Shown in pieces: positions 4,562 to 33,479 of a DNA stretch of 64,000 bases. Source of the DNA: Thalassotalea sp. PP2-459 (GTDB lineage: Bacteria > Pseudomonadota > Gammaproteobacteria > Enterobacterales > Alteromonadaceae). Both the position numbers and the translations under genes were made by a program. Numbering within the stretch: the first letter of the stretch is position 1; every line of letters begins with the position of its first letter. The notes below the pieces were generated by a model. The model was not told the origin of the DNA and made no database searches. It was given only the letters and a program-made list of their open reading frames with translations. Location of the stretch: assembly GCF_001913705.1 (NCBI RefSeq), contig NZ_MKQD01000044.1:1-64000 (forward strand), given 5' to 3'.

Positions 4562-4777
4562 TTAGCCAGAGCAGCAATTTTGCCCTTCCTGAATAGGAGG
4601 ACACTTAACTGTTCCGAACGAACAATAAACACAGCAGTCACCCTTTAAAGGCTTTAACAAAACTTTGCACGATTCACATTCATAATACCACTGACAAGCG
4701 TTTGTCGGCATTTCTTCTATTTTACTATGCCCACATTCAGGACATGTAATAGTCGATTTAAGCTCTATATTTTGCAT
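4562..4777 (-). CDS. GDCCVxC-domain cysteine-rich protein
   Basis: A 71-aa protein rich in cysteine: TCPEC, ECESC, GDCCVYC, KCPP and a terminal NCCSG. The GDCCVYCSFGTVKCPPIQ block defines the GDCCVxC family, some members of which are selenoproteins. The biochemical role is not established; metal or Hg(II) binding by the cysteines is an inference. The start is the ATG at 4777 with AAGGGAAC before it; a longer frame to 4864 runs inside merC and is rejected. It overlaps the end of merC by 13 bp, so the two are translationally coupled under the MerR-type promoter at 5185. Confidence 0.85.
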   Translation of the reverse strand: MQNIELKSTITCPECGHSKIEEMPTNACQWYYECESCKVLLKPLKGDCCVYCSFGTVKCPPIQEGQNCCSG

Positions 4778-5154
4778 GTTTGTTCCCTTACAGGTTTGAC
4801 GATATCTAACACAGACATAACGACCATTAAACAAATACCAAAGTAAAAGAGGTATGTGCTCCAATCATATTGCCAAAGAGGATAAAGCGTTAATAGCACT
4901 ACTACAGACCCTAAAATGCTGAAGACAGCTCTAGTATGGCTTTTATTTTTGTGCCAGTTGTATAAGTTTACCAATAGTGCCAACGATGCAAAAATAGGTA
5001 AAAGCGTATTTACAGCTAATCCCTCAAAGTGAGAAAGAAAACCTAACCCCAACGCTGATGCTAATGAACCGAGTGCAGGGAAACACCCTGTACAACTAAG
5101 TGCTGCAAGCCAAACCCCGCCTGAGCCAACTTTATCTAAAATTTTATTTATCAT
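4765..5154 (-). CDS. merC: MerC-type mercury transporter
   Basis: A 129-aa inner-membrane protein with four hydrophobic segments. The first helix carries LSCTGCFPALGSLASALGLG, the paired cysteines that in MerC proteins take up Hg(II); SHFEG follows as in the family. The normal role is import of Hg(II) for reduction by MerA in the cytoplasm. No merA, merP or merT lies in this window, so detoxification by reduction cannot be inferred. It is the first gene of a two-gene unit with the GDCCVxC protein, directly downstream of a MerR-type promoter and the merR gene. Confidence 0.88.
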   Translation of the reverse strand: MINKILDKVGSGGVWLAALSCTGCFPALGSLASALGLGFLSHFEGLAVNTLLPIFASLALLVNLYNWHKNKSHTRAVFSILGSVVVLLTLYPLWQYDWSTYLFYFGICLMVVMSVLDIVKPVREQTCKI

Positions 5155-5184
5155 TTGAAAGTCTATTGGTTGATATTACCAGCA

Positions 5185-5215
5185 CTTTAAACTCCGTATA
5201 TAAGTACGGAGTCAA
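5185..5215 (-). promoter_or_regulatory. MerR-type promoter of merC with 19-bp spacer
   Basis: On the minus strand, the -35 TTGACT (5210-5215) and a weak -10 TTAAAG (5185-5190) are separated by exactly 19 bp. The spacer region holds the dyad ACTCCGTA-N6-TACGGAGT (5191-5212), which closely matches the classical mer operator. Overlong spacers of this kind are untwisted by MerR when metal binds. It drives merC and the GDCCVxC gene. Confidence 0.85.
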
Positions 5216-5593
5216 TCATTTTAATGAATCAATTATGGGGCAATGTGTTGGATCTTCGTTTTGCATACAGGTATTTGTCATATCCACAATTACTTTCTCT
5301 AAACGTTGAAGGTCATTAATTTTGTCTCGAATGATTGCTAACTTTTGTCGGCTTAATAGCTCAACTTGAGCGCAGTTGCTGTCCATAGACATTAGCGATT
5401 TTATTTCTCTTAACGTAAAGCCGAGCGCTTTGGCTTTTGTGATAAACCTAAGTTGTCCTGCTATTGTTTCGTCATATTGTCTATAACCAGATATTGGTTT
5501 TTCAGGTTGTGTAATCAGCCCTTCTCGTTCATAAAAACGAATGGTTTCTACATTTAAATTTAATGATTGTGCTAATTTGCCAATGGTTTTCAT
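5216..5593 (-). CDS. merR: MerR, mercury-responsive transcription regulator
   Basis: A 125-aa MerR protein: winged HTH at residues 1-70 (VETIRFYEREGLI, SGYRQY), a dimer helix at 75-105, and a C-terminal metal loop. The three cysteines are C74, C109 and C118, with spacings of 35 and 9 residues, identical to C82/C117/C126 of Tn501 MerR that bind Hg(II) in a trigonal site. This makes mercury, rather than cadmium or lead, the likely inducer. The gene is transcribed in the same direction as merC, and the mer operator lies between them. It may be co-transcribed with the CadR/PbrR-type gene 42 bp upstream. Confidence 0.9.
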   Translation of the reverse strand: MKTIGKLAQSLNLNVETIRFYEREGLITQPEKPISGYRQYDETIAGQLRFITKAKALGFTLREIKSLMSMDSNCAQVELLSRQKLAIIRDKINDLQRLEKVIVDMTNTCMQNEDPTHCPIIDSLK

Positions 5594-5635: not shown

Positions 5636-6025
5636 TTAACTATCCAATGTTTTAATGATCCCGCAGGCTTCAATTGTATTATCTGACCCACAAGCACTTG
5701 CCATCTGTTGTAATTCAGCTTTAAGCGCCCTTAATTCTTTCATGCGTTTATTCACTAGTGCAAGTTGCTGATCAATTAATGCGTTAACGCTAGAGCAGCT
5801 TTCTTCGGGGGTATTTTTTAGTTCGATAAGACGTTTAATATCATTGAGTGATATATCTAGGCTGCGACAATGTTTTACGAATTCCAATTGTTTTAGTGCT
5901 TTACTATCATACAGCCTGAAATTACCTTCTGAACGGTTTGGATTTAATAGCAATCCTTCTCTTTCATAATATCTAATTGTCTGTATTGAACAGCCTGATT
6001 TTTTTGAGAACTCACCTATTTTCAT
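5636..6025 (-). CDS. CadR/PbrR-type MerR-family regulator (Cd/Pb/Zn)
   Basis: A 129-aa MerR-family protein starting at MKIGEFSKKSGC. The N-terminal HTH (SIQTIRYYEREGLL, GNFRLY) is followed by a coiled dimer helix and cysteines C77, C112 and C121 (EESCSS, ASACG, EACGII), the layout of CadR/PbrR proteins that sense divalent soft metals. An upstream extension of the frame runs into the operator region and is rejected. It diverges from the transglutaminase-CDF operon across a CTATAG-N3-CTATAG dyad. An identical arrangement lies upstream of the HMA-CDF gene at 14538, so this single regulator probably controls both metal-export operons. Confidence 0.88.
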   Translation of the reverse strand: MKIGEFSKKSGCSIQTIRYYEREGLLLNPNRSEGNFRLYDSKALKQLEFVKHCRSLDISLNDIKRLIELKNTPEESCSSVNALIDQQLALVNKRMKELRALKAELQQMASACGSDNTIEACGIIKTLDS

Positions 6026-6042: not shown

Positions 6043-6073
6043 TTGACTCTATAGTTACTATAGATTCTATAGT
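6043..6073 (+). promoter_or_regulatory. CadR/PbrR-type promoter, 19-bp spacer
   Basis: The -35 TTGACT (6043-6048) and -10 TATAGT (6068-6073) are 19 bp apart. The spacer contains CTATAGTTACTATAG (6049-6063), a dyad typical for MerR-family metal sensors. It reads into the transglutaminase-like and CDF genes, and lies just upstream of the divergent regulator gene, allowing autoregulation. Confidence 0.85.
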
Positions 6074-6102
6074 GTTAGTATACAAGTTGAATGGAGAATA
6101 AA

Positions 6103-6834
6103 ATGACAAAAAAATATTTAAATAATACGACAATTGTTAATTTTGAACATAAGAATATCCAATCTCTCATTAATCAACGAGGGTGGAAAAACTTGGATAA
6201 CTTCAACAAAATTGGTGCAGCCTACCAATTCGTTAAAGATGAAATATTATTTGGTTACAATGAGAGTGATGATATTTCAGCAAGCAGTGTTTTATCCGAT
6301 GGTTACGGACAATGTAATACCAAAGGCAACTTGCTGATGGCATTGTTGCGAGGGTTAGGCATTCAATGTCGTTTTCACGGTTTTACTATTGATCAGCAAT
6401 TACAAAAAGGTGCTATTCCAACCTATGTGTTTTGGTTAGCGCCTAAATACATCATCCATAGTTGGGTGGAAGTTTATTTCGATGGACGCTGGATAAACTT
6501 AGAGGGCTTTATATTGGATGAGCAATACTTAAGCTCACTACAGCAAAAATTTGACCAAGCAAAAGGTGAGTTTTGTGGTTATGGTGTTGCAACAAAGTGC
6601 TTATCTTCACCCGGTACGGATTGGCGTGGAGAGGATACCTATATTCAAAAAGAAGGTATTCATGACGACTTTGGGCTTTATGATTCCCCTGATGAGTTTT
6701 ATCTTGAAAAGGGTACTAATTTGTCGGGAGTAAAACGTTGGATATATCAACGCGTGATACGTCACTTGATTAATATGAATGTATCAAGACTAAGAAATAA
6801 AAAAGTACTAGAGGTACAAAATGCACAACCATAG
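6103..6834 (+). CDS. Transglutaminase-like cysteine protease-fold protein in the metal operon
   Basis: A 243-aa soluble protein with the transglutaminase-like (papain-fold) signature: DGYGQCNTKGNLLMALLRGLG with candidate nucleophile C71, and HSWVEVYFDGRWINLEG with H119 and an acidic third residue (E134 where Asp is usual). There is no signal peptide, so it acts in the cytoplasm. The ATG at 6103 is preceded by GGAG at 6-nt spacing. The gene is first in a metal-inducible unit and overlaps the CDF gene by 14 bp, implying coupled expression. Its substrate is unknown. Other cysteine-protease-fold activities, such as peptidase, amidase or peptide cyclisation, are equally possible. Confidence 0.75.
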   Translation: MTKKYLNNTTIVNFEHKNIQSLINQRGWKNLDNFNKIGAAYQFVKDEILFGYNESDDISASSVLSDGYGQCNTKGNLLMALLRGLGIQCRFHGFTIDQQLQKGAIPTYVFWLAPKYIIHSWVEVYFDGRWINLEGFILDEQYLSSLQQKFDQAKGEFCGYGVATKCLSSPGTDWRGEDTYIQKEGIHDDFGLYDSPDEFYLEKGTNLSGVKRWIYQRVIRHLINMNVSRLRNKKVLEVQNAQP

Positions 6835-7708
6835 TCACAGTCATCAGCATGGTAAAGGCGATCGTATTGGTTGGGCATTTTTTCTGAATGTGACATTTAC
6901 TATTATCGAGTTTATTGGTGGATGGCTTACCAACAGTACCGCGATAATGGCAGATGCTGTACATGATTTAGGTGATAGCCTGTCTATCGGCTTTGCATGG
7001 ATTTTAAGTCGTTTTTCAGATAAAGAAGCATCAGACAAATTCAGCTATGGTTATCGCCGTCTTACACTTTTTGGTGCATTGGTAAATAGTATTGTTTTGA
7101 TTATTGGTTCTATTTGGGTTTTATTTGAAGCCATTCCAAGGTTGTCCAATCCTGAAATGCCTGTAGTTGAGGGGATGCTGGGACTTGCCATACTCGGTGT
7201 TGCCGTGAATGGATATGCAGTTTTCAAATTAAAAGCGGGTGAAACATTAAATGAAAAAGTACTGACATGGCATCTACTTGAAGATGTACTTGGCTGGGTT
7301 GCTGTTCTTATTGTTTCTGTCGTACTTCTTTTTGTTGAACTGCCAATTTTAGACCCTTTATTATCAATTGGCTTCACGCTATTTATCTTATTTAACGTTT
7401 TTAGAAACTTGAAATCAACGTTGGTGCTTTTTCTTCAAGCGGCACCAGATAGAGAGACCCAAGAACGAATTAAACAATCATTACTGGAATTTCCAGAAGT
7501 TAATGGTATCCACCACATGCACTTTTGGTCACTAGATGGTGAAAGTCACGTTTTAACAGCGCATCTTGAGCTTAGAGACAACTTTGAAGTTGAAGACCTA
7601 ATTAGACTTAAACAAGAAGTTGCAACTAAATTAGCTTCCTATCATTTATCGCATACGACGATAGAGTTTGAGTTTCTAAATGAAAGTTGCCGAGATGATA
7701 CGAATTAA
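6821..7708 (+). CDS. CDF-family divalent metal exporter (CzcD/ZitB type)
   Basis: A 295-aa cation diffusion facilitator with six membrane helices. The N-terminus is His-rich (MHNHSHSHQHGK). The intramembrane metal site is visible as ADAVHDLGDSLS in helix 2 and WHLLEDVLGW in helix 5, the HxxxD pattern of Zn(II)/Cd(II) exporters. The C-terminal cytoplasmic domain (about residues 205-290) is present, with HHMHFWSLDGESHVLTAHLEL. It exports Zn(II), Cd(II) or Co(II) in exchange for protons. The start overlaps the transglutaminase-like gene, with GAGGT before the ATG. Expression should follow the CadR/PbrR-type promoter at 6043. Confidence 0.93.
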   Translation: MHNHSHSHQHGKGDRIGWAFFLNVTFTIIEFIGGWLTNSTAIMADAVHDLGDSLSIGFAWILSRFSDKEASDKFSYGYRRLTLFGALVNSIVLIIGSIWVLFEAIPRLSNPEMPVVEGMLGLAILGVAVNGYAVFKLKAGETLNEKVLTWHLLEDVLGWVAVLIVSVVLLFVELPILDPLLSIGFTLFILFNVFRNLKSTLVLFLQAAPDRETQERIKQSLLEFPEVNGIHHMHFWSLDGESHVLTAHLELRDNFEVEDLIRLKQEVATKLASYHLSHTTIEFEFLNESCRDDTN

Positions 7709-7741: not shown

Positions 7742-7772
7742 AAAGCAGCTTAAACATAAATTAAGCTGCTTT
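7742..7772. terminator. bidirectional terminator between the CDF and CzcA genes
   Basis: AAAGCAGCTTAA (7742-7753) and TTAAGCTGCTTT (7761-7772) form a 12-bp perfect stem with a 7-nt loop, flanked by A and T tracts. The two flanking operons converge on it. Confidence 0.85.
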
Positions 7773-13629: not shown

Positions 13630-14538
13630 TTAATACTTTAGCTGTAAGATGCGGCGAGCACCGTTTAAAACGACAAGGGCAATTATCAAACCAATCACTA
13701 AATCTGGATAACGGCTGCTTGTTACTGTAACTAATAAACCAGCTAAGATTACGCCAACGTTTGCGATAACGTCATTTGCGGAAAAAATCCAGCTCGCTTT
13801 CATATGAGCGCCGTCTTCTTTGTTGCCAAATATTAAAAACAGACAAGCAATGTTAGCGATTAGTGCTATTCCACCAAATATCATCATTAAAGATGACATA
13901 GGCTCACTACCATAAATAAAGCGTCTTACGACTTCACTCAAAGCACCTAGCGCTAGAATAATTTGAAGTACACCAGATATATGTGCCGCTCTAAGTTTCA
14001 TGCTGATACTTTTACCTACGGCATAAATAGCTAAACCATACACCGCAGCATCAGCAAACATATCTAATGAGTCGGCAATAAGGCCAGCAGACTGCGCAAT
14101 AATCCCGGCAATTATCTCTACAAAAAACATGACTCCGTTAATAGCCAACAACCATTTTAGTGTTGATGCTTCTTTCATCTCATTTTTTTGGGCTAGATCT
14201 TTTGCTTTTGCAGCTTCTGTGCTGCAACTTTCTTTAGTTGATGCTAACTCTGCACCGAGTTTAAGTTGTTGTAACTTTTTTGTTATTTCATCTAAATTTT
14301 CATCATGAAAAACTTTCACTAAGCGATTAGGAATATCAAATTGCAAGCCAACAGAAGGTTCCACACCATCTAGTGCTAACCTGATCAACCTTTCTTCTGA
14401 AGGACAGTCCATTTGAGGCACTTTATATGTACTGACAAACCCGCCACTATAGTTATCTAATTGCGCATCAATTTTTACATCTTCATTGGTAGAAGATGAT
14501 TGACACTGACCACTACATTTTTCTGACATATTTAACAT
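13630..14538 (-). CDS. CDF-type cation transporter with N-terminal HMA-like domain
   Basis: A 302-aa protein. Residues 1-110 form a cytoplasmic part with a Cys-rich tip (EKCSGQCQ) and an HMA/MerP-like ferredoxin fold (STYKVPQMDCPSEERLIRLA), in which one Cys of the usual pair is missing. Residues 125-300 are six helices of the CDF fold with GLIADSLDMFADAAVYG and WIFSANDVIANVG. The usual C-terminal cytoplasmic domain is absent, so metal sensing may have moved to the N-terminus. A second in-frame ATG at 14529 is also a plausible start. It is the first gene of a five-gene operon ending in czcA and has its own CadR/PbrR-type promoter (14559-14589). Confidence 0.88.
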   Translation of the reverse strand: MLNMSEKCSGQCQSSSTNEDVKIDAQLDNYSGGFVSTYKVPQMDCPSEERLIRLALDGVEPSVGLQFDIPNRLVKVFHDENLDEITKKLQQLKLGAELASTKESCSTEAAKAKDLAQKNEMKEASTLKWLLAINGVMFFVEIIAGIIAQSAGLIADSLDMFADAAVYGLAIYAVGKSISMKLRAAHISGVLQIILALGALSEVVRRFIYGSEPMSSLMMIFGGIALIANIACLFLIFGNKEDGAHMKASWIFSANDVIANVGVILAGLLVTVTSSRYPDLVIGLIIALVVLNGARRILQLKY

Positions 14539-14558: not shown

Positions 14559-14589
14559 AGTATAAAATCTATAGTGGCTATAGAGTCAA
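14559..14589 (-). promoter_or_regulatory. Second CadR/PbrR-type promoter with 19-bp spacer
   Basis: On the minus strand the -35 TTGACT (14584-14589) and -10 TATACT (14559-14564) are 19 bp apart, enclosing CTATAGCCACTATAG. Apart from three central bases and the -10, this is the same element as at 6043-6073. It drives the HMA-CDF, CzcI, CzcC, CzcB and CzcA genes. Confidence 0.85.
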
Positions 14590-14676: not shown

Positions 14677-14695
14677 TATTTAACTGGTGATAACT

Positions 14696-15046
14696 TTGAA
14701 CCTTAATGTTGTACTAAAAATGCTCTTAGTCTTTTCGATTGTTTTACAATCGTTAACTGCTGTTGCATCTTCAACATCTGAGAATCACCAAATAGATATA
14801 GAGCACCTTCAAACTCAACATGATCATGCAGATGATCGAAATGCCTTAAATGATAATACAGATGATGAACAGCACGATGTAAAGGATTGTCATCACTGTG
14901 GTCATTGCAGTGGCAGCCACTTATCTTGGATTTTAGTCAGTAATTCCAATGTCGATGGTAAGCTAAATATTATCAATAAAACGCCTTATCAAATTGATCA
15001 AACAAGTACCTTTCTTGAAGCTATACTTCGTCCGCCTATTTCTTAA
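14696..15046 (+). CDS. CzcI-like His/Cys-rich exported protein (operon 2)
   Basis: A 116-aa protein with a signal peptide (LKMLLVFSIVLQSLTAVAS), a His/Asp-rich central part (HLQTQHDHADDRNAL), a metal-ligand cluster DCHHCGHCSGSH and a C-terminus ILRPPIS. This is the CzcI design: an exported small protein with a His/Cys centre and Pro-rich tail, placed before czcC. I chose the TTG at 14696 because GGTGAT lies 5 nt before it; an in-frame GTG at 14687 is an alternative. It probably buffers or senses metal in the periplasm. It is divergent from the HMA-CDF operon. Confidence 0.72.
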   Translation: MNLNVVLKMLLVFSIVLQSLTAVASSTSENHQIDIEHLQTQHDHADDRNALNDNTDDEQHDVKDCHHCGHCSGSHLSWILVSNSNVDGKLNIINKTPYQIDQTSTFLEAILRPPIS

Positions 15047-23294: not shown

Positions 23295-24467
23295 ATGGAT
23301 GATTTGATTGATAATGAGTTGTTCCTGCAAATTGAGGAGCACCTAAAGTGTAGTGAACAAAGCTGGCTTCTAGGTGCAGGGATTAGCTTCGATGCTAAAT
23401 TACCTTTAATGTACCCTTTGACCAATAAGGTTAAAAAAGATGTCGAAAGTAGTCACAAGAAATTATTTGACGAAGTAATCACTCCGCTCTTTCAAGAGTT
23501 GCCTAACAACTGCCATATAGAACACGTCCTTAGCCACCTTGGTGACTATGCTGCACTAGCTGAAAGAAACAAAGATAATAAAACGGTAATTAATGGCAGC
23601 GAAGTTGAGTTATTAACCCTAGAAGAAGCACATAATACAATTCTTGAATCTATCTCAAATGTGATCCGGTGTGGGTATGTTGAGGACAAGGATGGAAATA
23701 CAGTTGAAGAAGGTTCTTTATCTAAGCCAATCGTTGACATCAATGCACATATAGAATTTATTGATACTCTATTTAACCACGCCTCCGCTGGTGTTTTTGA
23801 ACGAAGAAAAGCAGTAAACATATTCACAACTAACTACGACACTCTTTTGGAAGATTCACTAGCACTTAATAGGGTTCCATATTGGGATGGTTTTGCAGGA
23901 GGAGCTGTAGCGCATCGTATACAAAAATATGGAGAACCCACACCAGCAAATGGACAGCGTGCGAACTTAATTAAAATGCATGGTTCGATAGATTGGTTTC
24001 TTTGTGACAAAGGGTATGTATGGCGAGTGAGAGATAACGACCTCTATCCAAAGGCAGAACGGCGAGTTTTAATTTACCCACAAGCTACAAAATATATTGC
24101 GACTCAACAAGATCCCTTTTCTACGCAATTTGATTTATTCAGAAAATCGCTAAATTCCTCCAATAGTAATATTTTAGCTGTGTGCGGCTATAGTTTTGGC
24201 GATGATCACATCAACAACGAAATAGAGTTTGCTTTATCAAAAGAAGAGAATAAAACTGTATTGCTTGCTTTCTTGGAGTGTAAGGATGCAATTCCTCCAT
24301 GTCTAGAAAAGTGGCGTAATGGTAGTTTTGGCTCAAGCGTAATTATTGCCTCCATACATGGCCTGTATATTGGAAAAGAAGGCCCATTTAAAAGGAAAGG
24401 CGAAGATGATTATTGGTGGACATTCAACGGTGTAACATCAGTATTAAAGAATGGATGCGAGGTTTAA
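23295..24467 (+). CDS. SIR2-family effector of a SIR2-HerA antiphage pair
   Basis: A 390-aa SIR2-like protein. NAD-binding and catalytic landmarks are present: LLGAGISFDA (residues 25-34), TTNYDTLLED (from about 178), KMHGSIDW with H229 as the catalytic histidine, and CGYSFGDDHIN (from 297). In SIR2-HerA systems this protein assembles with the HerA ATPase and depletes NAD+ (or cuts nucleic acid) upon phage infection, stopping phage growth. AAAGGA precedes the ATG. The herA gene begins 2 bp after its stop. It is island cargo and the only recognisable defence module in the window. Confidence 0.9.
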   Translation: MDDLIDNELFLQIEEHLKCSEQSWLLGAGISFDAKLPLMYPLTNKVKKDVESSHKKLFDEVITPLFQELPNNCHIEHVLSHLGDYAALAERNKDNKTVINGSEVELLTLEEAHNTILESISNVIRCGYVEDKDGNTVEEGSLSKPIVDINAHIEFIDTLFNHASAGVFERRKAVNIFTTNYDTLLEDSLALNRVPYWDGFAGGAVAHRIQKYGEPTPANGQRANLIKMHGSIDWFLCDKGYVWRVRDNDLYPKAERRVLIYPQATKYIATQQDPFSTQFDLFRKSLNSSNSNILAVCGYSFGDDHINNEIEFALSKEENKTVLLAFLECKDAIPPCLEKWRNGSFGSSVIIASIHGLYIGKEGPFKRKGEDDYWWTFNGVTSVLKNGCEV

Positions 24468-24469
24468 TT

Positions 24470-26308
24470 ATGTTTACACCATCTGAAGAACTAAAAATAG
24501 GTCAAGTTGTCGAGGTATCTGGAACCAACATAAAAGTTGAGATTTCCGATAAAATATCAGAATTAACAAGAACTTTTAATGGCCGTGTTTACCCGATTGG
24601 TCAAATAGGTAGCATGGTTAAAATTCACTATGGTCGTAAAATAATTTTTGGCTTGGTGACAATGCTAAGAATGCGTTCAGAAGAGTTAATTGAAGCTGGA
24701 ATGCCTGTAACTCCTGATTCTGATCAACGTGTAATGGAAGTCCAACTGCTGGCTGAAGGAAGCTGGAATAATACAAAATCAACTTTGGCTTTTAAACGCG
24801 GAATTAAAACTTACCCTTTACCTCAACAAGGCGTATTCCTTCTAACCAACGAAGAAATTTCTTTTGTCTATCGCTCAGCTGAAGGTACAAGAAATGATGA
24901 AGTAGATCCATTAGTTCCTTTTGCTGTTTATAGTGCTTCTGAATCTACAGCCTGTCGAACTAACATTAATAAAATGTTTGGTATGCACTGTGCTGTTCTT
25001 GGTTCAACTGGATCAGGTAAATCTGGTACAGTTGCTGCAATTATTCATAGTGTACTTTCCCATAAAAATAACGATAAAGAGTTGTCACCTCAGATAGTGG
25101 TCATTGATCCTCACGGAGAGTACGGCTCAGCCTTTAAGACTAGAGCGGTCCAATATCGTGCATATGACATAGCAACAGGTGATGATGGACAAGATGAAAT
25201 CAAGCTTCCATATTGGTTAATGTCTAGCGATGAGTTTACTAATCTGATTATCGGTAAGACAGAAAGAAGTGCTACTAGCCAGAATAACGCAGTCCAGAAA
25301 GCACTTGCACATGCAAGAATGGTTGCAGCTAATATTGTAAAGCCTTGTCCAAGAGAGTTTGGGACAAATGAATTAGATCATTTAGAAAGTTTTGATGAAC
25401 CAAACCTTTGTGATGGCAAAGATACGTCAGATATTCTGGAATTCGACCGTGATAAACCTAGACCATTCTGTTTGGAAGAATTTGAAAGTCATATTAAATA
25501 TATACAGGGTGGGAGAAAAACTAATGCTGGTCATGTGAGCTTGTCAAATACTGATCTAGCAAAATCTCCCGTACCATCCATACTCGATAAGCTCAAGGTT
25601 CTTCGAAGAGATACTCGGCTTTCATTTATGATGAAGTGTTGGCTCGATAATGAAGATGAAATCAAGCTACATCAAGTCCTGAATCAATTTATAGGGGCTC
25701 CTAGTCAGGAAGGTAAAGATATCAGAATTATTGATATTTCAGGCCTGCCAAACGAAGTCGCAGGTCCACTGACAGCTCTAATCGCCAGACTGCTCTTTCA
25801 GTATAAAATATTCCAGACTCAAGAAGAAAAAGAAAAAGATCCAATTCTCTTAGTTTGTGAAGAAGCCCATAGATATGTTCCAGATCATGGAGAAGCTCAA
25901 TACGCTGCTGCACAGGGCGCAATTAGACGCATTGCAAGGGAAGGTCGTAAATACGGAATAGGCCTGATGCTTGTTAGTCAACGACCAGCAGATGTAGATA
26001 GTACGGTCATATCTCAATGTGGTACATGGGTTGTATTAAGACTTACAAACTCAGCTGATCAACAACATGTCGCTCGCTTTTTGCCTGATGGTCTATCTGG
26101 CATGGTTGGGGCCTTACCTATTTTATCTCAACAAGAAGCTATTTTTGTCGGTGAAGGAGCTGCATTACCTTCTCGAATTAGAATAAGAGACTTGAAAAGT
26201 GATCAATTGCCTAAATCTAATACAATCCCATTTGCTCAAGGTTGGGCGAGTGAACGTTTAAACTTGGAAAAACTCGAAACTATATCTCAGCGAATGTGTG
26301 TCGACTAA
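24470..26308 (+). CDS. herA: HerA-type ATPase partner of SIR2
   Basis: A 612-aa HerA/FtsK-superfamily ATPase. The N-terminal HAS-barrel (residues 1-75: GQVVEVSGTNIKVEI, GRVYPIGQIGSMVKI) is followed by Walker A GSTGSGKS at 178-185, DPHGEYGSAF at about 213, Walker B LLVCEEAHRY at about 465, and an arginine-containing REGRKYGIGLMLVSQRPADV. HerA rings form hexamers that scaffold SIR2 and use ATP. The ATG at 24470 is preceded by GAGG and lies 2 bp after the SIR2 stop; an upstream extension of the frame overlaps SIR2 and is rejected. Confidence 0.9.
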   Translation: MFTPSEELKIGQVVEVSGTNIKVEISDKISELTRTFNGRVYPIGQIGSMVKIHYGRKIIFGLVTMLRMRSEELIEAGMPVTPDSDQRVMEVQLLAEGSWNNTKSTLAFKRGIKTYPLPQQGVFLLTNEEISFVYRSAEGTRNDEVDPLVPFAVYSASESTACRTNINKMFGMHCAVLGSTGSGKSGTVAAIIHSVLSHKNNDKELSPQIVVIDPHGEYGSAFKTRAVQYRAYDIATGDDGQDEIKLPYWLMSSDEFTNLIIGKTERSATSQNNAVQKALAHARMVAANIVKPCPREFGTNELDHLESFDEPNLCDGKDTSDILEFDRDKPRPFCLEEFESHIKYIQGGRKTNAGHVSLSNTDLAKSPVPSILDKLKVLRRDTRLSFMMKCWLDNEDEIKLHQVLNQFIGAPSQEGKDIRIIDISGLPNEVAGPLTALIARLLFQYKIFQTQEEKEKDPILLVCEEAHRYVPDHGEAQYAAAQGAIRRIAREGRKYGIGLMLVSQRPADVDSTVISQCGTWVVLRLTNSADQQHVARFLPDGLSGMVGALPILSQQEAIFVGEGAALPSRIRIRDLKSDQLPKSNTIPFAQGWASERLNLEKLETISQRMCVD

Positions 26309-26843: not shown

Positions 26844-28826
26844 TTAAACCTCCGATGTGGCTATGACGCCCTTTATCGCATCATTAAATTCTTCAAAATT
26901 TAAATCATGCTTTTTAATTGTTATTTCATTACGTTTTATCTTATGTTTCATACCAATTAAAATGCTGTTCATCATTGTGTCACCTGTATTAAGTTCTCTA
27001 AAGCTTGATATTAAACGTTTATTCTGACGTAAAACTTTCTTAGCCTCTTTATCTGTAACTAGTTGATGGTCACAAGGCTTTATCTCGCCAGGAAATTCAC
27101 CTATACCGCATACTCTGCTGCAAGATGCATTCAGGCAGTAACCTCCTGTAGGGAGCTTAACAACCGATAGAGTACCATTTCGAACTAAACGTTCTATTTC
27201 ATCTCGATTCATATATACAAGATGACCATTTTCAAGCTTTTCAAATTTATCTTGTGCAATACGCTCACCACCTGCGCCACTTAAATTTTCAGATTCATTA
27301 TAAATTTCATCAAAAATATCCACCCCCATACGGATACCTTCTTCTTCCATCAATTCTAATAACTCGGTATCCATTAAAATGTCTTCCATGGCTTGTAATT
27401 GAGCATTATTGGCGTAGTAGTTAGACATATTTATATTCTGATGCTTATATTGAAACTTAATGGTTGCAGAAGAACCAAAACCATAGCGTTTGAAGAAAAC
27501 AGCAAAAGTACGACGAAGATCATGAGGTGTGAGTTTAGGTAATTTCCCACCAACTTTCAGTTCACCTTCGCGGGTAGGGTTCAATCGATTAAATTCCTCA
27601 ACGTCATTTTGAGAGGCGACAATTCCTGATTCAGCAAACGAGTCGTTAAAACGCCTTTCCATACCAGAGATAATAAAGCGAGTGTCGATCTTATCAGGCA
27701 AAGTACTAATAAATGCGCTATTAATCTCCCTAAGTGCATGTTGATAGTCATCATTCGATAATTCTCCAGCAATCACCATTTGTTCAACTTTACTAACGTA
27801 CTCATTTCTTAAATGCTCAGTTATGCCATAAGCTAACTCTAAAGCGTCTTTTACAACAGGATGAGTTTGCCAAGTAGCAACCCTTGGAACCCCGTCATTC
27901 CCTTTAGAAGTTTCTCCTTTAATAACTGATATATCATTATCTTTACCTGATATTACTGTTTTATAGCTATTAATTGACATGCTCAGCATCTCACCAAGCC
28001 TCATACCAGAGAATGCTATAGCCACAATGCTACAATTGGTCAGTATTCTATTTAATACAGTACCATCCAAGAGGATTTTAAAGTCAGGAATATCATGAAG
28101 AATTTGTTTTGTTTTAATTAATGTTCTTTGTGATATTGAACCAGGTTTTTGACTTAATTCTTTTCTATTTTTTTCACCTTCCCTTATTAATCTAGCTTCC
28201 TTCATAACTCGATCAATTTCATGAATGAAAGGTTGATATAATTCAACAAGTTGAATTGCGCTAGCTAGAATAGGTTGATACATACCTATAGGAATTGCAA
28301 TATGCTGCTTAGTTGGCCTTAACTCAACAAACTTTCTTAGGCTATTTCGATTTATTAATCTCATACATAGCCCGTACTCGTGAAGTTTTTTAATTGCAGT
28401 AACGACTTCATCAATGGTAGTTTCTGACTTTTTATTAAGACCTTTAACCACTTGTTTTGTAAATGAAGAGAATACATTATCATCTGACAAAGATGCCCAA
28501 TTACAGCTATTTAATGCTGTTGCAATTTTAATAAGGCCATTCTTCCAGCGCTGTATTTGACTGCATGTGGTTTTTTGGTGGTGTTTTACTTCATACCTAT
28601 CAGAAATAACCCCTAAAGCTCTTTGTATTCCTTCTCGATATGCTAAATCAATATTTTTAAAAGAAACTTTAAAAGGTTGCCCCACTGCACGTGCTTCTTG
28701 CCCCGAGTAAATCCATGTTTCATCATAAATTCGACTACGAGGCAAACCATCAGAACGAGTTGTTATTATAGTATCTGCACTAAATTCAGGTATATCTCTG
28801 AGTTTAACTTTTGCGTTTATTTTCAT
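26844..28826 (-). CDS. ginC: GinC-like large tyrosine recombinase
   Basis: A 660-aa site-specific recombinase. Catalytic residues are visible: Arg in AFSGMRLGEMLSMS, the HxLR box in LTPHDLRRTFAVFF, a candidate second His in QYKHQNINMS and Tyr in NYYANN. A Cys-rich tail (CLNASCSRVCGIGEF, CDHQLV) may bind zinc. At 660 aa it is about twice the size of XerC-type enzymes, with a long N-terminal core-binding part. It overlaps ginB by 4 bp (ATGA). It should act with GinA and GinB in excision and integration of the island. Confidence 0.85.
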   Translation of the reverse strand: MKINAKVKLRDIPEFSADTIITTRSDGLPRSRIYDETWIYSGQEARAVGQPFKVSFKNIDLAYREGIQRALGVISDRYEVKHHQKTTCSQIQRWKNGLIKIATALNSCNWASLSDDNVFSSFTKQVVKGLNKKSETTIDEVVTAIKKLHEYGLCMRLINRNSLRKFVELRPTKQHIAIPIGMYQPILASAIQLVELYQPFIHEIDRVMKEARLIREGEKNRKELSQKPGSISQRTLIKTKQILHDIPDFKILLDGTVLNRILTNCSIVAIAFSGMRLGEMLSMSINSYKTVISGKDNDISVIKGETSKGNDGVPRVATWQTHPVVKDALELAYGITEHLRNEYVSKVEQMVIAGELSNDDYQHALREINSAFISTLPDKIDTRFIISGMERRFNDSFAESGIVASQNDVEEFNRLNPTREGELKVGGKLPKLTPHDLRRTFAVFFKRYGFGSSATIKFQYKHQNINMSNYYANNAQLQAMEDILMDTELLELMEEEGIRMGVDIFDEIYNESENLSGAGGERIAQDKFEKLENGHLVYMNRDEIERLVRNGTLSVVKLPTGGYCLNASCSRVCGIGEFPGEIKPCDHQLVTDKEAKKVLRQNKRLISSFRELNTGDTMMNSILIGMKHKIKRNEITIKKHDLNFEEFNDAIKGVIATSEV

Positions 28827-30685
28827 GAGAAGACCTCAAATAAGTCATTTAAACTGTAAACATTATTATAAAGCGGGTGTGCAGCTTCTTTTATCTTCTC
28901 TTCTGCTAACAAGAAGTTACTGCTGGATTTTTCCTTAAAGCGCTTGAGAATACTCTCAATAATATTGAAGAGCCATGTATATCGCTTTTCAGGCATAGAG
29001 TTAACAGCTGGTAACTGTTGAAGCTGCTGTAAAGTTTCTTTAAATGAAAGCATTAACCAAATATCCATAACATCAGCAACTAGAGCATGATGTTCACATT
29101 CAAAACATGATAGAAAATCTGTACAGAAACTTTCTTCTACGGTTGTATCAACTCCTTCTTTTTTAAGTAATTTTCTTATTATACTTGCAGAACCTTTTTT
29201 ATTATCGTTACAACGAACACCAAGTGGTGTTCGTGATTCGTTATTTCTATCTTTTCCTGCTCTAAGATGCTCATACTCATAGTTATCAAGGATATCGGCA
29301 AATTTATATTTCGCAGCTTCCGTTGCTGCTTTTATTTCTTTTCCATTAGCGATGGCATATTTAGCATCCATCGCAGCCCCTAGATTATTCTGATGCTCTG
29401 TTTTCGTTCCATGAACATAGTTTCTCGCCACGACATTTATACTGTTATTTCCAGACATTGCGACTAAATAGACACTCTGTGTAACACGAAATAATGTATC
29501 CAACTTGGACTTTCTAAATCGTGACGGATTTATTGTAGGAAGCCCTAGTTTTTCAAGCAATTTGTTGATAGAAGTTTGCGGGGAATTGATCACTGCATCG
29601 TATGTAGTTACGCTTCCGTCTTGTTTGAAGTAGGGAAATACTGGAGCTGAAATGTCTCCTTCTGCCATAGTTTTAGCAACAGAAAGCCAGCTTTCTATAA
29701 ACTCCTTAGCATGTTTATTAAAGCCGAGAGAATTATCTTGCTCTTGATTTCTAGCCCTACCTTTTGATGAATCAAAAATATACTTGCCACCTTGCACCTC
29801 TTTAAAATATATATCAGATATTTTAAGCTTTGCTAATGGATTAGTATTTATTCCTGTAAACATGTAAGTAATCATCATTGCGATTCTTACAATATGATTC
29901 CGTGCATCTGATTTTTGAAGTGCTTTTTTAAACGCTGCTTTTTGTCCTACAAGTTTGTTTCCTTTTAGACCTCTCTCAATGGCAACCTTATTTAATAACT
30001 CTTCATCGTATAAAGGATGTCGCTCCGGTAATGTACTTTCTTTAAAATGCTTTAATAGAGACTTATATGCCTTAAACAACGATTTAGCTAAAGGTTTTAG
30101 CTCAGTTTCAAGATCATGAGCCTGATAAGAATTATTGCCTACTGTAGCGCCTTTAACTGATGGAAGGCTTTTAGCGTCTAAACTTCTATTTAACTGTTTA
30201 AGTACCCACGAGAGTGCTTTTTTATCTGCTGACCAACTAGTTTTTTGTTTCCGATTTAACGCACATTCTTCGCTAAACCATTTCATATATTCATTTATTA
30301 AATCCATATGAAACCAGTCACCTTTGATAGCCTTAAGTCCAAAACCATCTAACCAGCGTATATAATTTATAACACCACAAAAATGAGAGTAAGTTGTTTG
30401 ATTAGTATCTTTACTCATTAATTGATAAAGGTTACGAATTAAATCATTGCGCTTCATATCAACAAGTAAAGCACCTTTTTTAAAGTCAGCAGTTTGATTG
30501 TCTAAAACTGGACAGCCTTTATACTTAAATCGCTTAAAGTACATCTTTCCCCGTCCAGGTACAGCGATATTCATGTCTATTATATGAATTGGGTTAACTG
30601 TAGCTCTTGGTGCAACATTATCACGAATTGGGGCTAATTCTTTGCGTTTACCTTTCAATACTTTAAACCTCACTTGAGATATCAT
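28823..30685 (-). CDS. ginB: GinB-like recombinase-family protein with degenerate active site
   Basis: A 620-aa protein, second in the operon, whose layout resembles the neighbouring recombinases. The first box reads YMFTGINTNPLAKLKISD where an active enzyme has TGLRxxEL, so the first catalytic Arg is replaced by Asn. The second box, NPSRFRKSKLDTLF, keeps an Arg but has Ser for His, and no clear GH...Y end is seen (NYVHG is the closest). A Cys/His cluster follows near the C-terminus (FCTDFLSCFECEHH). It is probably a structural or DNA-binding partner in a three-recombinase complex. It overlaps ginA by 23 bp. Confidence 0.8.
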   Translation of the reverse strand: MISQVRFKVLKGKRKELAPIRDNVAPRATVNPIHIIDMNIAVPGRGKMYFKRFKYKGCPVLDNQTADFKKGALLVDMKRNDLIRNLYQLMSKDTNQTTYSHFCGVINYIRWLDGFGLKAIKGDWFHMDLINEYMKWFSEECALNRKQKTSWSADKKALSWVLKQLNRSLDAKSLPSVKGATVGNNSYQAHDLETELKPLAKSLFKAYKSLLKHFKESTLPERHPLYDEELLNKVAIERGLKGNKLVGQKAAFKKALQKSDARNHIVRIAMMITYMFTGINTNPLAKLKISDIYFKEVQGGKYIFDSSKGRARNQEQDNSLGFNKHAKEFIESWLSVAKTMAEGDISAPVFPYFKQDGSVTTYDAVINSPQTSINKLLEKLGLPTINPSRFRKSKLDTLFRVTQSVYLVAMSGNNSINVVARNYVHGTKTEHQNNLGAAMDAKYAIANGKEIKAATEAAKYKFADILDNYEYEHLRAGKDRNNESRTPLGVRCNDNKKGSASIIRKLLKKEGVDTTVEESFCTDFLSCFECEHHALVADVMDIWLMLSFKETLQQLQQLPAVNSMPEKRYTWLFNIIESILKRFKEKSSSNFLLAEEKIKEAAHPLYNNVYSLNDLFEVFS

Positions 30686-32150
30686 GAGTTAAGGCATCAT
30701 CGATATCGCCTAGACCATCAAATATACCCAGGTAGTCTAAAACATCTTCATAGATCTCATCACCTGCCGGCTCATCTTGTGCAATTTTAAGGTACAATAA
30801 TGTGGTTGCCGCATCTTCATGACCTAGGCATTCAGATACTAGTGCAAGAGCTGTATCAGGATCAGTTTTACGCAATAAAACTCTGAATAATGAGACTGCA
30901 AATGTTGGCCGTAGATTATGTATAACCCCATTTATATTAATGCCATTATCATTTTCAACTGTGGCTCTAATTTCATTCCAACGAGTATTAGCTTCTGTCA
31001 ATTTAGTGAAAAAAGGTATACCTGTTTGACTGATAAAAATGTAGTCTTTTTCTTCATCAATACCGTCTTCAACTTCAAAGAGTGCATTATCACCCAAAGC
31101 TCTTCTTTCTCTACAAAAGGCTTTAAACTTAGCAAGTCTCGCTTGATACCTATCACTACGAGTATACTCATAGAGCATTTGCATCGTACTTGTTGGAATG
31201 ATTGTGCGTCTGGGTTTATTATCATGACCATTTGACTTGGTGAGTGAGCCGTAAGTACTACCGACACCAAAGCGCATCATTTTCTTTTCAAGATTTGGTT
31301 TTACTACTTGCCCTTTATGTAAACTTGCAACTTCTTCTTTTCTTAGCCCTGTGAACCTACCCACAAGGAAAAATAAACAATACTCAATTGGAAATGAAGC
31401 CCTCTTTAGTTCCCCTCCAACATTTTTTATAACCTTTCTTGAGCCTAGTAGTATCTTCTCTACTGATGTCCACTCAACATTTGCTAATGGCTTTAGATCG
31501 CGTCTTGACGAGGGGAGCCCACCTCCTTCGTTTTTCTTCGATTTTCCAAAGTTTAAACGTAAGTCAGTTGTATGAACTTGCTTAGACATATAAGCCTTCA
31601 TGCTAGTACCACTTGCTTGAAAACTTATCGTAACAACTTCATACTTAAAGGGCGGATTATTAAATTGGTAACCATTTCTAAGATAATAGGAGTAAAATTT
31701 AACGACACCATTCATATACGCTGACGCTGTTGTTCTAGCAATTTTCAATTGAGGGTTTTGTTCTTCAAGAACAGCATGCTTTAACGCAGCTCGATATTGA
31801 TAAGTAATTCGTTGATTTTTACGTAAGGGAAAGGTATTCCAGGTAGGTCGAGGTAAATCAATTAATTCATCAAATAAATCTTCATCATACTCTGCATCCC
31901 ATAGGCTTTGTGATTTAAGCAGAAATGAAAAGAAGTGTACTAAAGCTTTGCTATATTGATCAGATTCTTGTTTTGATTCATCGACATGATGAGCTAACAA
32001 GAACCGGTTCACCTGCTCTAATGGTTCATAAGAGACTATAGTTCCAGACTCATCTCTACCTACTAAATTCAATAAAGTAAGCTTTTTAATATGAACAGGA
32101 TCTTGTTTGGAGTATTTAACTGAGAGTTCACCATTGTCATCTACAATCAC
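30663..32150 (-). CDS. ginA: GinA-like tyrosine recombinase at the island end
   Basis: At least 495 aa. The full tyrosine-recombinase set is present: Arg in RFTGLRKEEVASL (about residue 270), HNLRPTFAVSLF (about 411), LGHEDAATTLLYLK with His and the nucleophilic Tyr near the C-terminus. The nearest regular start is GTG at 32150, but it has no Shine-Dalgarno site. The frame stays open upstream with protein-like text (IEIFYEIKTTEIKPYTYRTP) as far as 32213, where AGG stands 7 nt before an ATA; no ATG, GTG or TTG exists there. The true start may be that ATA, inside the terminal inverted repeat. First gene of ginABCD. Confidence 0.85.
   Translation of the reverse strand: MIVDDNGELSVKYSKQDPVHIKKLTLLNLVGRDESGTIVSYEPLEQVNRFLLAHHVDESKQESDQYSKALVHFFSFLLKSQSLWDAEYDEDLFDELIDLPRPTWNTFPLRKNQRITYQYRAALKHAVLEEQNPQLKIARTTASAYMNGVVKFYSYYLRNGYQFNNPPFKYEVVTISFQASGTSMKAYMSKQVHTTDLRLNFGKSKKNEGGGLPSSRRDLKPLANVEWTSVEKILLGSRKVIKNVGGELKRASFPIEYCLFFLVGRFTGLRKEEVASLHKGQVVKPNLEKKMMRFGVGSTYGSLTKSNGHDNKPRRTIIPTSTMQMLYEYTRSDRYQARLAKFKAFCRERRALGDNALFEVEDGIDEEKDYIFISQTGIPFFTKLTEANTRWNEIRATVENDNGININGVIHNLRPTFAVSLFRVLLRKTDPDTALALVSECLGHEDAATTLLYLKIAQDEPAGDEIYEDVLDYLGIFDGLGDIDDALTHDISSEV

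Positions 32151-32288: not shown

Positions 32289-33479
<1,191 letters not shown>

Follow-up and report, generated by a model that had tools for sequence, protein, structure and literature searches.

A transglutaminase-like protein encoded with Zn/Cd exporters is probably one of two interchangeable exporter accessories

Introduction

Accounts of Zn and Cd efflux through CDF and P1B pumps usually name a regulator and a pump. A stretch of 64,000 nucleotides from Thalassotalea sp. PP2-459 (contig NZ_MKQD01000044.1 of assembly GCF_001913705.1, positions 1 to 64,000 of the forward strand; here, the window) raises the question of what an enzyme-like protein may be doing in such an operon, as its first gene encodes a transglutaminase-like protein (TG). 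A preliminary description of this DNA had proposed a role for a cysteine enzyme in metal tolerance. Literature searches covering few subscription journals and no preprints found no description of the TG-exporter pair in titles and abstracts and nothing for DUF3703, the family that fills the place of TG in sister operons; PMC4338557 is an unrelated co-mention.

Results

Architecture of the window operon

The features of the operon and of a second CadR-type site are collected in Table 1. The regulator, which is divergent from the TG gene, scores just over the cut-off of the NCBIfam CadR-PbrR equivalog TIGR02047 (154.8 against 151.45 bits), and the spacer of the promoter holds a perfect dyad, CTATAGT-T-ACTATAG. 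The whole promoter element, with up to three mismatches allowed, did not occur in 100 shuffles, and the dyad alone occurred on average 0.02 times. The dyad CTATAGTNACTATAG is found 5' of TG in all 11 upstream regions printed, the window's copy counted, with at most one change per hexamer. We placed the TG start at the ATG that follows GGAG, 12 bp inside the mechanical open reading frame, which begins at 6091. The preliminary description was right that TG lies directly behind a MerR-type promoter and overlaps a CDF exporter gene. The regulator and promoter together suggest that the TG-CDF operon is metal-inducible.

Table 1 Features of the TG-CDF operon and of the second CadR-type site in the window
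Feature	Coordinates	Strand	Remarks
cadR-like MerR-family regulator	5636-6025	-	129 aa; Cys12, 53, 77, 112, 121
MerR-type promoter/operator	6043-6073	+	TTGACT, 19-bp spacer, TATAGT
Ribosome-binding site of TG gene	6093-6096	+	GGAG, read from sequence
TG, transglutaminase-like protein	6103-6834	+	243 aa; Pfam, alignment, model
Codon of Cys71 of TG	6313-6315	+	predicted catalytic residue
Codon of His119 of TG	6457-6459	+	predicted catalytic residue
Codon of Glu134 of TG	6502-6504	+	predicted catalytic residue
CDF exporter	6821-7708	+	295 aa; His-rich N-terminus; 14-bp overlap with TG end
Terminator-like hairpin, operon end	7742-7772	+ (listed on both strands)	consensus match only
Cation transporter	13630-14538	-	302 aa; behind the second operator
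CadR-type operator, second copy	14559-14589	-	3 mismatches; element search

The exporter matches Cation_efflux (137.2 bits) and ZT_dimer (38.1 bits) in Pfam and exceeds the cut-off of TIGR01297 (204.4 against 82.35 bits); against the ZitB equivalog PRK03557 it stays below (165 against 408). It carries the residue pairs H48-D52 and H151-D155, which we take to be the HD-HD site of a Zn/Cd-type exporter. The hairpin at the operon end is one of 3 terminator-like sites found in the window, where 1.2 are expected. The transporter behind the second operator matches PF01545 with 61.2 bits, scores below the cut-off for the CDF superfamily (67.8 against 82.35 bits) and is 54% identical over its residues 12-190 to the small CDF of locus L038; it is a relative of the small CDF found inside the operon in other genomes. 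Because the second operator fronts this transporter gene, the island probably contains a two-promoter CadR regulon.

Other features surround the operon. Directly beside cadR, 4562-5593 (-) encodes what is by sequence a small mercury-type operon, made up of MerC (170.8 bits against a cut-off of 140), a GDCCVxC-domain protein and a MerR-like regulator whose 140 bits fall short of the MerR cut-off of 150.85. A short protein with a CHHCGHC motif (14687-15046, +) has a counterpart at L038:7667-8026, and its relatives (cluster c5) recur beside TG/CDF operons and RND pumps; it matched no Pfam family, and the L038 copy gave only a sub-threshold CopL-family match. A SIR2-like protein and a HerA ATPase encoded at 23295-26308 (+) score 728 and 502 bits with the PADLOC SIR2 and HerA models and are probably an anti-phage defence pair. 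Three large adjacent and overlapping reading frames at 26844-32150 (-), two of which have tyrosine-recombinase matches (21.2 and 26.0) below the Pfam cut-off of 27.1, adjoin an obg-like GTPase gene (32289-33443, named by reading of the frame) and are perhaps the integration module of an island. Another genome of the same species (L278) shares most of the region, at 84% DNA identity, and has another TG allele, which may reflect exchange of the operon or its independent acquisition.

Active site and fold of TG

TG matches Transglut_core (PF01841) with 54.1 bits against a gathering cut-off of 23. This was its only Pfam match at E values up to 0.001, phytochelatin synthase (PF05023) not being matched; its single NCBIfam match was far below the cut-off (18.9 against 450), it matched no PHROG and no PADLOC family, and a search of the PDB returned no relative by sequence and only 3isr, at E 0.28, by profile. 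Cys71, His119 and Glu134 are kept in all 76 unbroken rows of the TG family, from which broken and partial copies had been removed beforehand and among which the divergent L138 and L139 are not counted, and the same holds for Gln70, Asn72, Trp121, Trp130 and Asp139. Other cysteines vary (C89 in 67, C158 in 68 and C166 in 63 of 76 rows), and His92 is present in 74. Since the whole environment of the triad is invariant, we favour a catalytic role for TG.

In the AlphaFold model (pLDDT 77.4, pTM 0.81, poor at residues 152-180), Cys71 lies where a helix starts and His119 lies on a strand. The best solved match of the model is 3isr, a putative cysteine protease from Cytophaga hutchinsonii (Z 11.8, rmsd 3.5, 150 residues aligned), followed by human transglutaminases and LapG (Z 8.3). 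TG thus resembles the PF01841 superfamily and 3isr in core fold, in the Cys at the start of a helix, in the His on a later strand and in an acidic residue at the end of the profile, Glu134 aligning with position 107 of 108. It differs from the usual transglutaminase-like proteins, in which the third triad residue is Asp, and from its PF01841 relatives in having a C-terminal part of its own, with conserved YIQK-G and PD-FY motifs, and in being linked to metal exporters. LapG/BTLCP proteases have their own Pfam profile, which TG does not match, LapG being a structural neighbour only. The preliminary reading of a transglutaminase/papain-fold protein with intact Cys71 and His119 is borne out by the profile match, the predicted fold and the retention of both residues in every unbroken row.

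Selection on TG is purifying, as it is on the CDF exporter. A finite dS was obtained for TG in 8 of 12 comparisons, and in these dN/dS was 0.045-0.158 for TG (0.045-0.075 in six of them) and 0.050-0.072 for CDF; several of the dS values exceed 1 and are rough.

Linkage to exporters and regulators

Scanning of genomes gave 68 TG loci, and a plasmid search gave 201 records, with marine alphaproteobacteria and Acinetobacter heading the names. We classified neighbours with HMMs built from the loci and placed TG in a quick tree of 97 rows, 76 of which form the family clade. Rows with identical sequences were left out beforehand, together with 26 loci, namely broken or partial ones (L010, L014, L036, L070, L071, L074-L079, L082, L089, L113, L120), duplicates (L002, L015, L125, L127, L128) and weak or multi-domain ones outside the family (L013, L095, L099, L103, L108, L110).

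Within 1.3 kb of TG, 60 of the 76 clade members have an exporter gene, namely a CDF in 45 (counting L116, where the CDF is in two pieces), a P1B-ATPase in 10 and a small CDF in 5; the partner is an AraC regulator in 9 of 76 and a MerR-type regulator only in 2, and the last 5 have no such partner, among them L055, where a P1B gene sits further upstream. As the TG rows are related, the 60 pairings do not count as 60 separate events. The tree requires 4 changes for pairing with CDF, of which starred branches force 3, and 7 for pairing with P1B (6 forced). By comparison, 54 control transglutaminase loci had no clear CDF, small CDF, MerR or P1B match within about 1.5 kb. These controls comprised 24 distant homologues and the 30 best-scoring loci among the PF01841 matches listed for 40 relatives, which are mostly proteins of 650-750 aa, much longer than TG; two of the 30 had P1B matches of only 15 and 20 bits, and one RND gene was seen. 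Conserved linkage, on which the preliminary idea depended, is thus observed.

TG is linked to CadR/MerR-type regulators and Zn/Cd-type exporters outside the class as well. Annotated plasmids of Acidovorax, Shinella and Diaphorobacter carry CadR, P1B and TG together, marine alphaproteobacterial plasmids carry a MerR-type regulator, TG and CDF, and on a Flavobacterium plasmid TG and P1B accompany a Fur-family regulator (23.6 bits, cut-off 23.1). On a contig from a viral collection, TG comes last in a row of three, after ArsR-like and P1B-like genes (these two named by reading of the frames). In all 21 loci chosen, the window included, TG and CDF overlap by 8-20 bp; we took as CDF start the start codon nearest the expected place, which leans towards overlap, but those deposited annotations examined that have both genes agree. 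Because of this overlap the two genes are probably translated in coupling.

The window operon resembles CadR/PbrR-regulated exporter operons in its above-cut-off CadR and divergent MerR-type promoter, and TG operons share with them a CDF or P1B exporter; they differ from the known examples in including a transglutaminase-like protein or, in sister operons, DUF3703. Several loci have an ICMT/PEMT-like gene 3' of TG or of TG-CDF. CzcN-type methyltransferase genes occur in czc clusters, which TG operons resemble in carrying an enzyme of unclear role among metal-resistance genes, though TG and these methyltransferases differ in fold and chemistry.

Exchange of TG with DUF3703

We searched 295 Alteromonadaceae-type genomes (the family of the window) with the small CDF and surveyed 63 of the 64 matches of at least 209 bits, leaving out G967 at a contig start; some genomes contributed two loci. 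In the 56 operons with the order MerR / small CDF - X - CDF, the X position is taken 23 times by TG and 33 times by DUF3703 (PF12487), and no operon has both or neither. Seven further loci, in which no CDF was detected, held TG in one (G009), DUF3703 in one (at a contig end) and neither in five. A quick small-CDF tree of 76 rows that includes other taxa, with long branches at L203 and L200, gives 4 exchanges between TG and DUF3703; L124, where a cytochrome c gene lies between small CDF and TG, was scored as having neither. Within the window's family most of the split goes back to one or two events.

Among 19 close homologues of the CDF exporter in 59 genomes, TG is adjacent in 5, including the interrupted copy of G009. 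The other 14 have no adjacent TG, and three of these (L184, L185 and L188) have MerR, small CDF and CDF with DUF3703 where TG would be (PF12487 at 119.5 bits in L184 and 128 bits in L188; by HMM in L185); the remaining 11 have no TG beside them. Among all loci collected up to that point, L067 is the only TG locus that also holds DUF3703, several kilobases away.

DUF3703 also occurs with metal genes elsewhere. Of 7 plasmid records taken from 25 listed, a metal exporter lies within 2.5 kb in five, a copper chaperone is present in one and neither in one; Rhodococcus has ArsR, DUF3703 and a P-type ATPase in a row, the last two overlapping; and in a class sample MerR or small CDF stands beside DUF3703 in 5 of 8 loci. 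DUF3703 shares with TG the same slot in these operons, but at about 120 aa it is predicted to be helical, with three invariant His and no catalytic Cys, and we found no family or fold common to the two. H38, H48, H52 and E67 are invariant in all 15 aligned sequences; the helical model, built from two sequences only, gave weak TPR-like matches, none significant (best E 0.52).

AraC regulators were considered as a second context common to TG and DUF3703 and were dropped, the scores not being specific. With an HMM built on the AraC proteins linked to TG, those beside DUF3703 at L198 and L209 score 105 and 125 bits. Of 14 AraC relatives found in a search across the class (13 at 78-151 bits, one at 22), one (L284, the same place as L198) has DUF3703 within about 1.5 kb and none has TG.

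Distribution, broken copies and members away from metal genes

TG relatives at least 52% identical occur in 8 other genomes among 58 relatives. An even sample of the class gave no close relative in the other 368 genomes (best other E 8.5e-8), and in a phylum sample 15 of 398 genomes, the window's included, had TG at E 1e-20. Broken copies accompany intact CDF genes: TG is frameshifted in six Pseudoalteromonas/Glaciecola loci (L074-L079), interrupted in one genome (G009, L010/L014) and reduced by a large internal deletion on Acinetobacter plasmids, in each case beside an intact CDF. TG is shortened in Dinoroseobacter L120. Conversely, at L116:3980-5641 on a Pseudosulfitobacter plasmid TG and small CDF are intact and the CDF is in two pieces, with no gene annotated for it. 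A Mycolicibacterium plasmid, a host far from the usual ones, has a TG relative with 51% identity (L113:3726-4743) that is spread over two frames and follows a gene for an AraC-like regulator; this copy is probably broken.

The AraC-paired members, two members beside rluB-like and DUF2569 genes (L007 and L065) and one inside a cytochrome-oxidase-type cluster (L136/L140, names partly by reading) show that TG is not confined to metal operons. Since 9 of 76 members are AraC-paired and 5 of 76 lack a listed partner, its chemistry is probably not tied to one exporter.

Discussion

Several lines of evidence in the sequences bear on TG: the architecture of the operon, the CadR regulator and operator, linkage to three exporter types, the triad, purifying selection and exchange with DUF3703. 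Linkage, intact triad and slot exclusivity indicate that TG is a real part of these resistance operons, in which TG and DUF3703 are probably interchangeable as accessories of Zn/Cd exporters in the cytosol. Our best explanation, held at just short of even confidence, is a cytosolic accessory that most likely works as a Cys71-His119-Glu134 amidase or peptidase and can be exchanged with DUF3703. CadR would co-induce TG and the exporter, and TG, with its transglutaminase-fold triad, would act on cytosolic metal-holding ligands (peptide or thiol complexes) or metal-damaged proteins. As unrelated exporters are paired with TG and an unrelated protein replaces it, TG probably acts on something common to all the systems and does not mature one pump; that it serves different pumps and is exchangeable argues for a role upstream of the pump. 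DUF3703, whose invariant residues are three His and a Glu, would do an equivalent job by other chemistry.

That a cysteine enzyme has a part in metal tolerance, as first proposed, is a sound hypothesis because TG with its triad intact recurs beside CadR/MerR-type regulators and Zn/Cd-type exporters; the proposal must now accommodate a slot that is also filled by DUF3703 and TG genes away from metal genes. Two observations argue against an essential role, the broken TG genes beside intact CDF genes and the 9 of 76 members that are AraC-paired without CDF or P1B. That 14 of the 19 close CDF homologues have no TG beside them also speaks against our explanation. Against catalysis stands the replacement by a protein without the cysteine, so that the common role could be binding.

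The strongest rival is metal binding, since DUF3703, with which TG is exchanged, has conserved His and no Cys. TG would here be a metallochaperone that binds Zn or Cd through Cys71, His119 and Glu134, perhaps with His92, and passes the ion to the exporter, an enzyme fold reused as a metal site, and DUF3703 would do the same with its three His. The canonical site of TG does hold a Cys/His/Glu cluster, and DUF3703, with its invariant residues and helical, TPR-like model, looks more like a binder. We nevertheless consider a metallochaperone somewhat unlikely: TG has no further invariant Cys and His92 is not fully kept, the invariant Gln70, Asn72, Trp121 and Trp130 fit catalysis, and there are members without a CDF or P1B gene.

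We regard a role in thiol-peptide chemistry as a less likely possibility. As an analogue of phytochelatin synthase, TG would transfer or hydrolyse gamma-glutamyl-cysteine units of glutathione, thereby making or recycling metal ligands. The regulator is of the Cd type, and 13 of the 18 TG-bearing genomes, that of the window among them, have glutamate-cysteine ligase (PF04262); the other 5 all belong to one family (f239) whose alphaproteobacterial-type grouping is inferred. Against this, the operons read contain no thiol-synthesis gene, and TG occurs also in Flavobacterium, presumably not a glutathione group. A search with PF05023 matched none of the 18 TG-bearing genomes, but none of the control genomes either, and so weighs neither way. 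Phytochelatin synthase is, according to PMC10318531, a papain-like Cys enzyme tied to metal tolerance, with a fold related to that of TG; TG shares these traits and differs in having no sequence match to the family.

That TG is a protease or deamidase which matures or turns over the exporter or regulator seems quite improbable. The putative cysteine protease 3isr and LapG are among its structural neighbours and its gene overlaps that of CDF, but its partners comprise three exporter types and several regulator types, DUF3703 substitutes for it, and CDF genes stay intact beside broken TG. Least probable is mobile cargo caught in metal operons with no part in tolerance, which the patchy distribution (8 among 58 relatives, 15 of 398 in the phylum) and persisting broken copies would fit, and against which stand the repeated linkage to exporters, the filling of the slot by TG or DUF3703 in 56 of 56 operons and the low dN/dS in six of eight comparisons.

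Returning to the exchangeable accessory, we put forward more tentatively that TG and DUF3703 are non-homologous proteins for the same unrecognised cytosolic step of Zn/Cd export, swapped between operons. The step may be the release of metal from a cellular ligand or a matching hydrolytic reaction, for which one protein would use a catalytic Cys and the other a three-His metal site.

A conserved enzyme-like gene that shares its regulator with the pump, occurs on plasmids from marine alphaproteobacteria and Acinetobacter and can be exchanged for DUF3703 suggests that the textbook pathway is missing a part. The exchange offers a functional lead for DUF3703, and a TG with an intact active site, encoded with Zn/Cd pumps in many bacteria, would indicate an unrecognised step in metal resistance.
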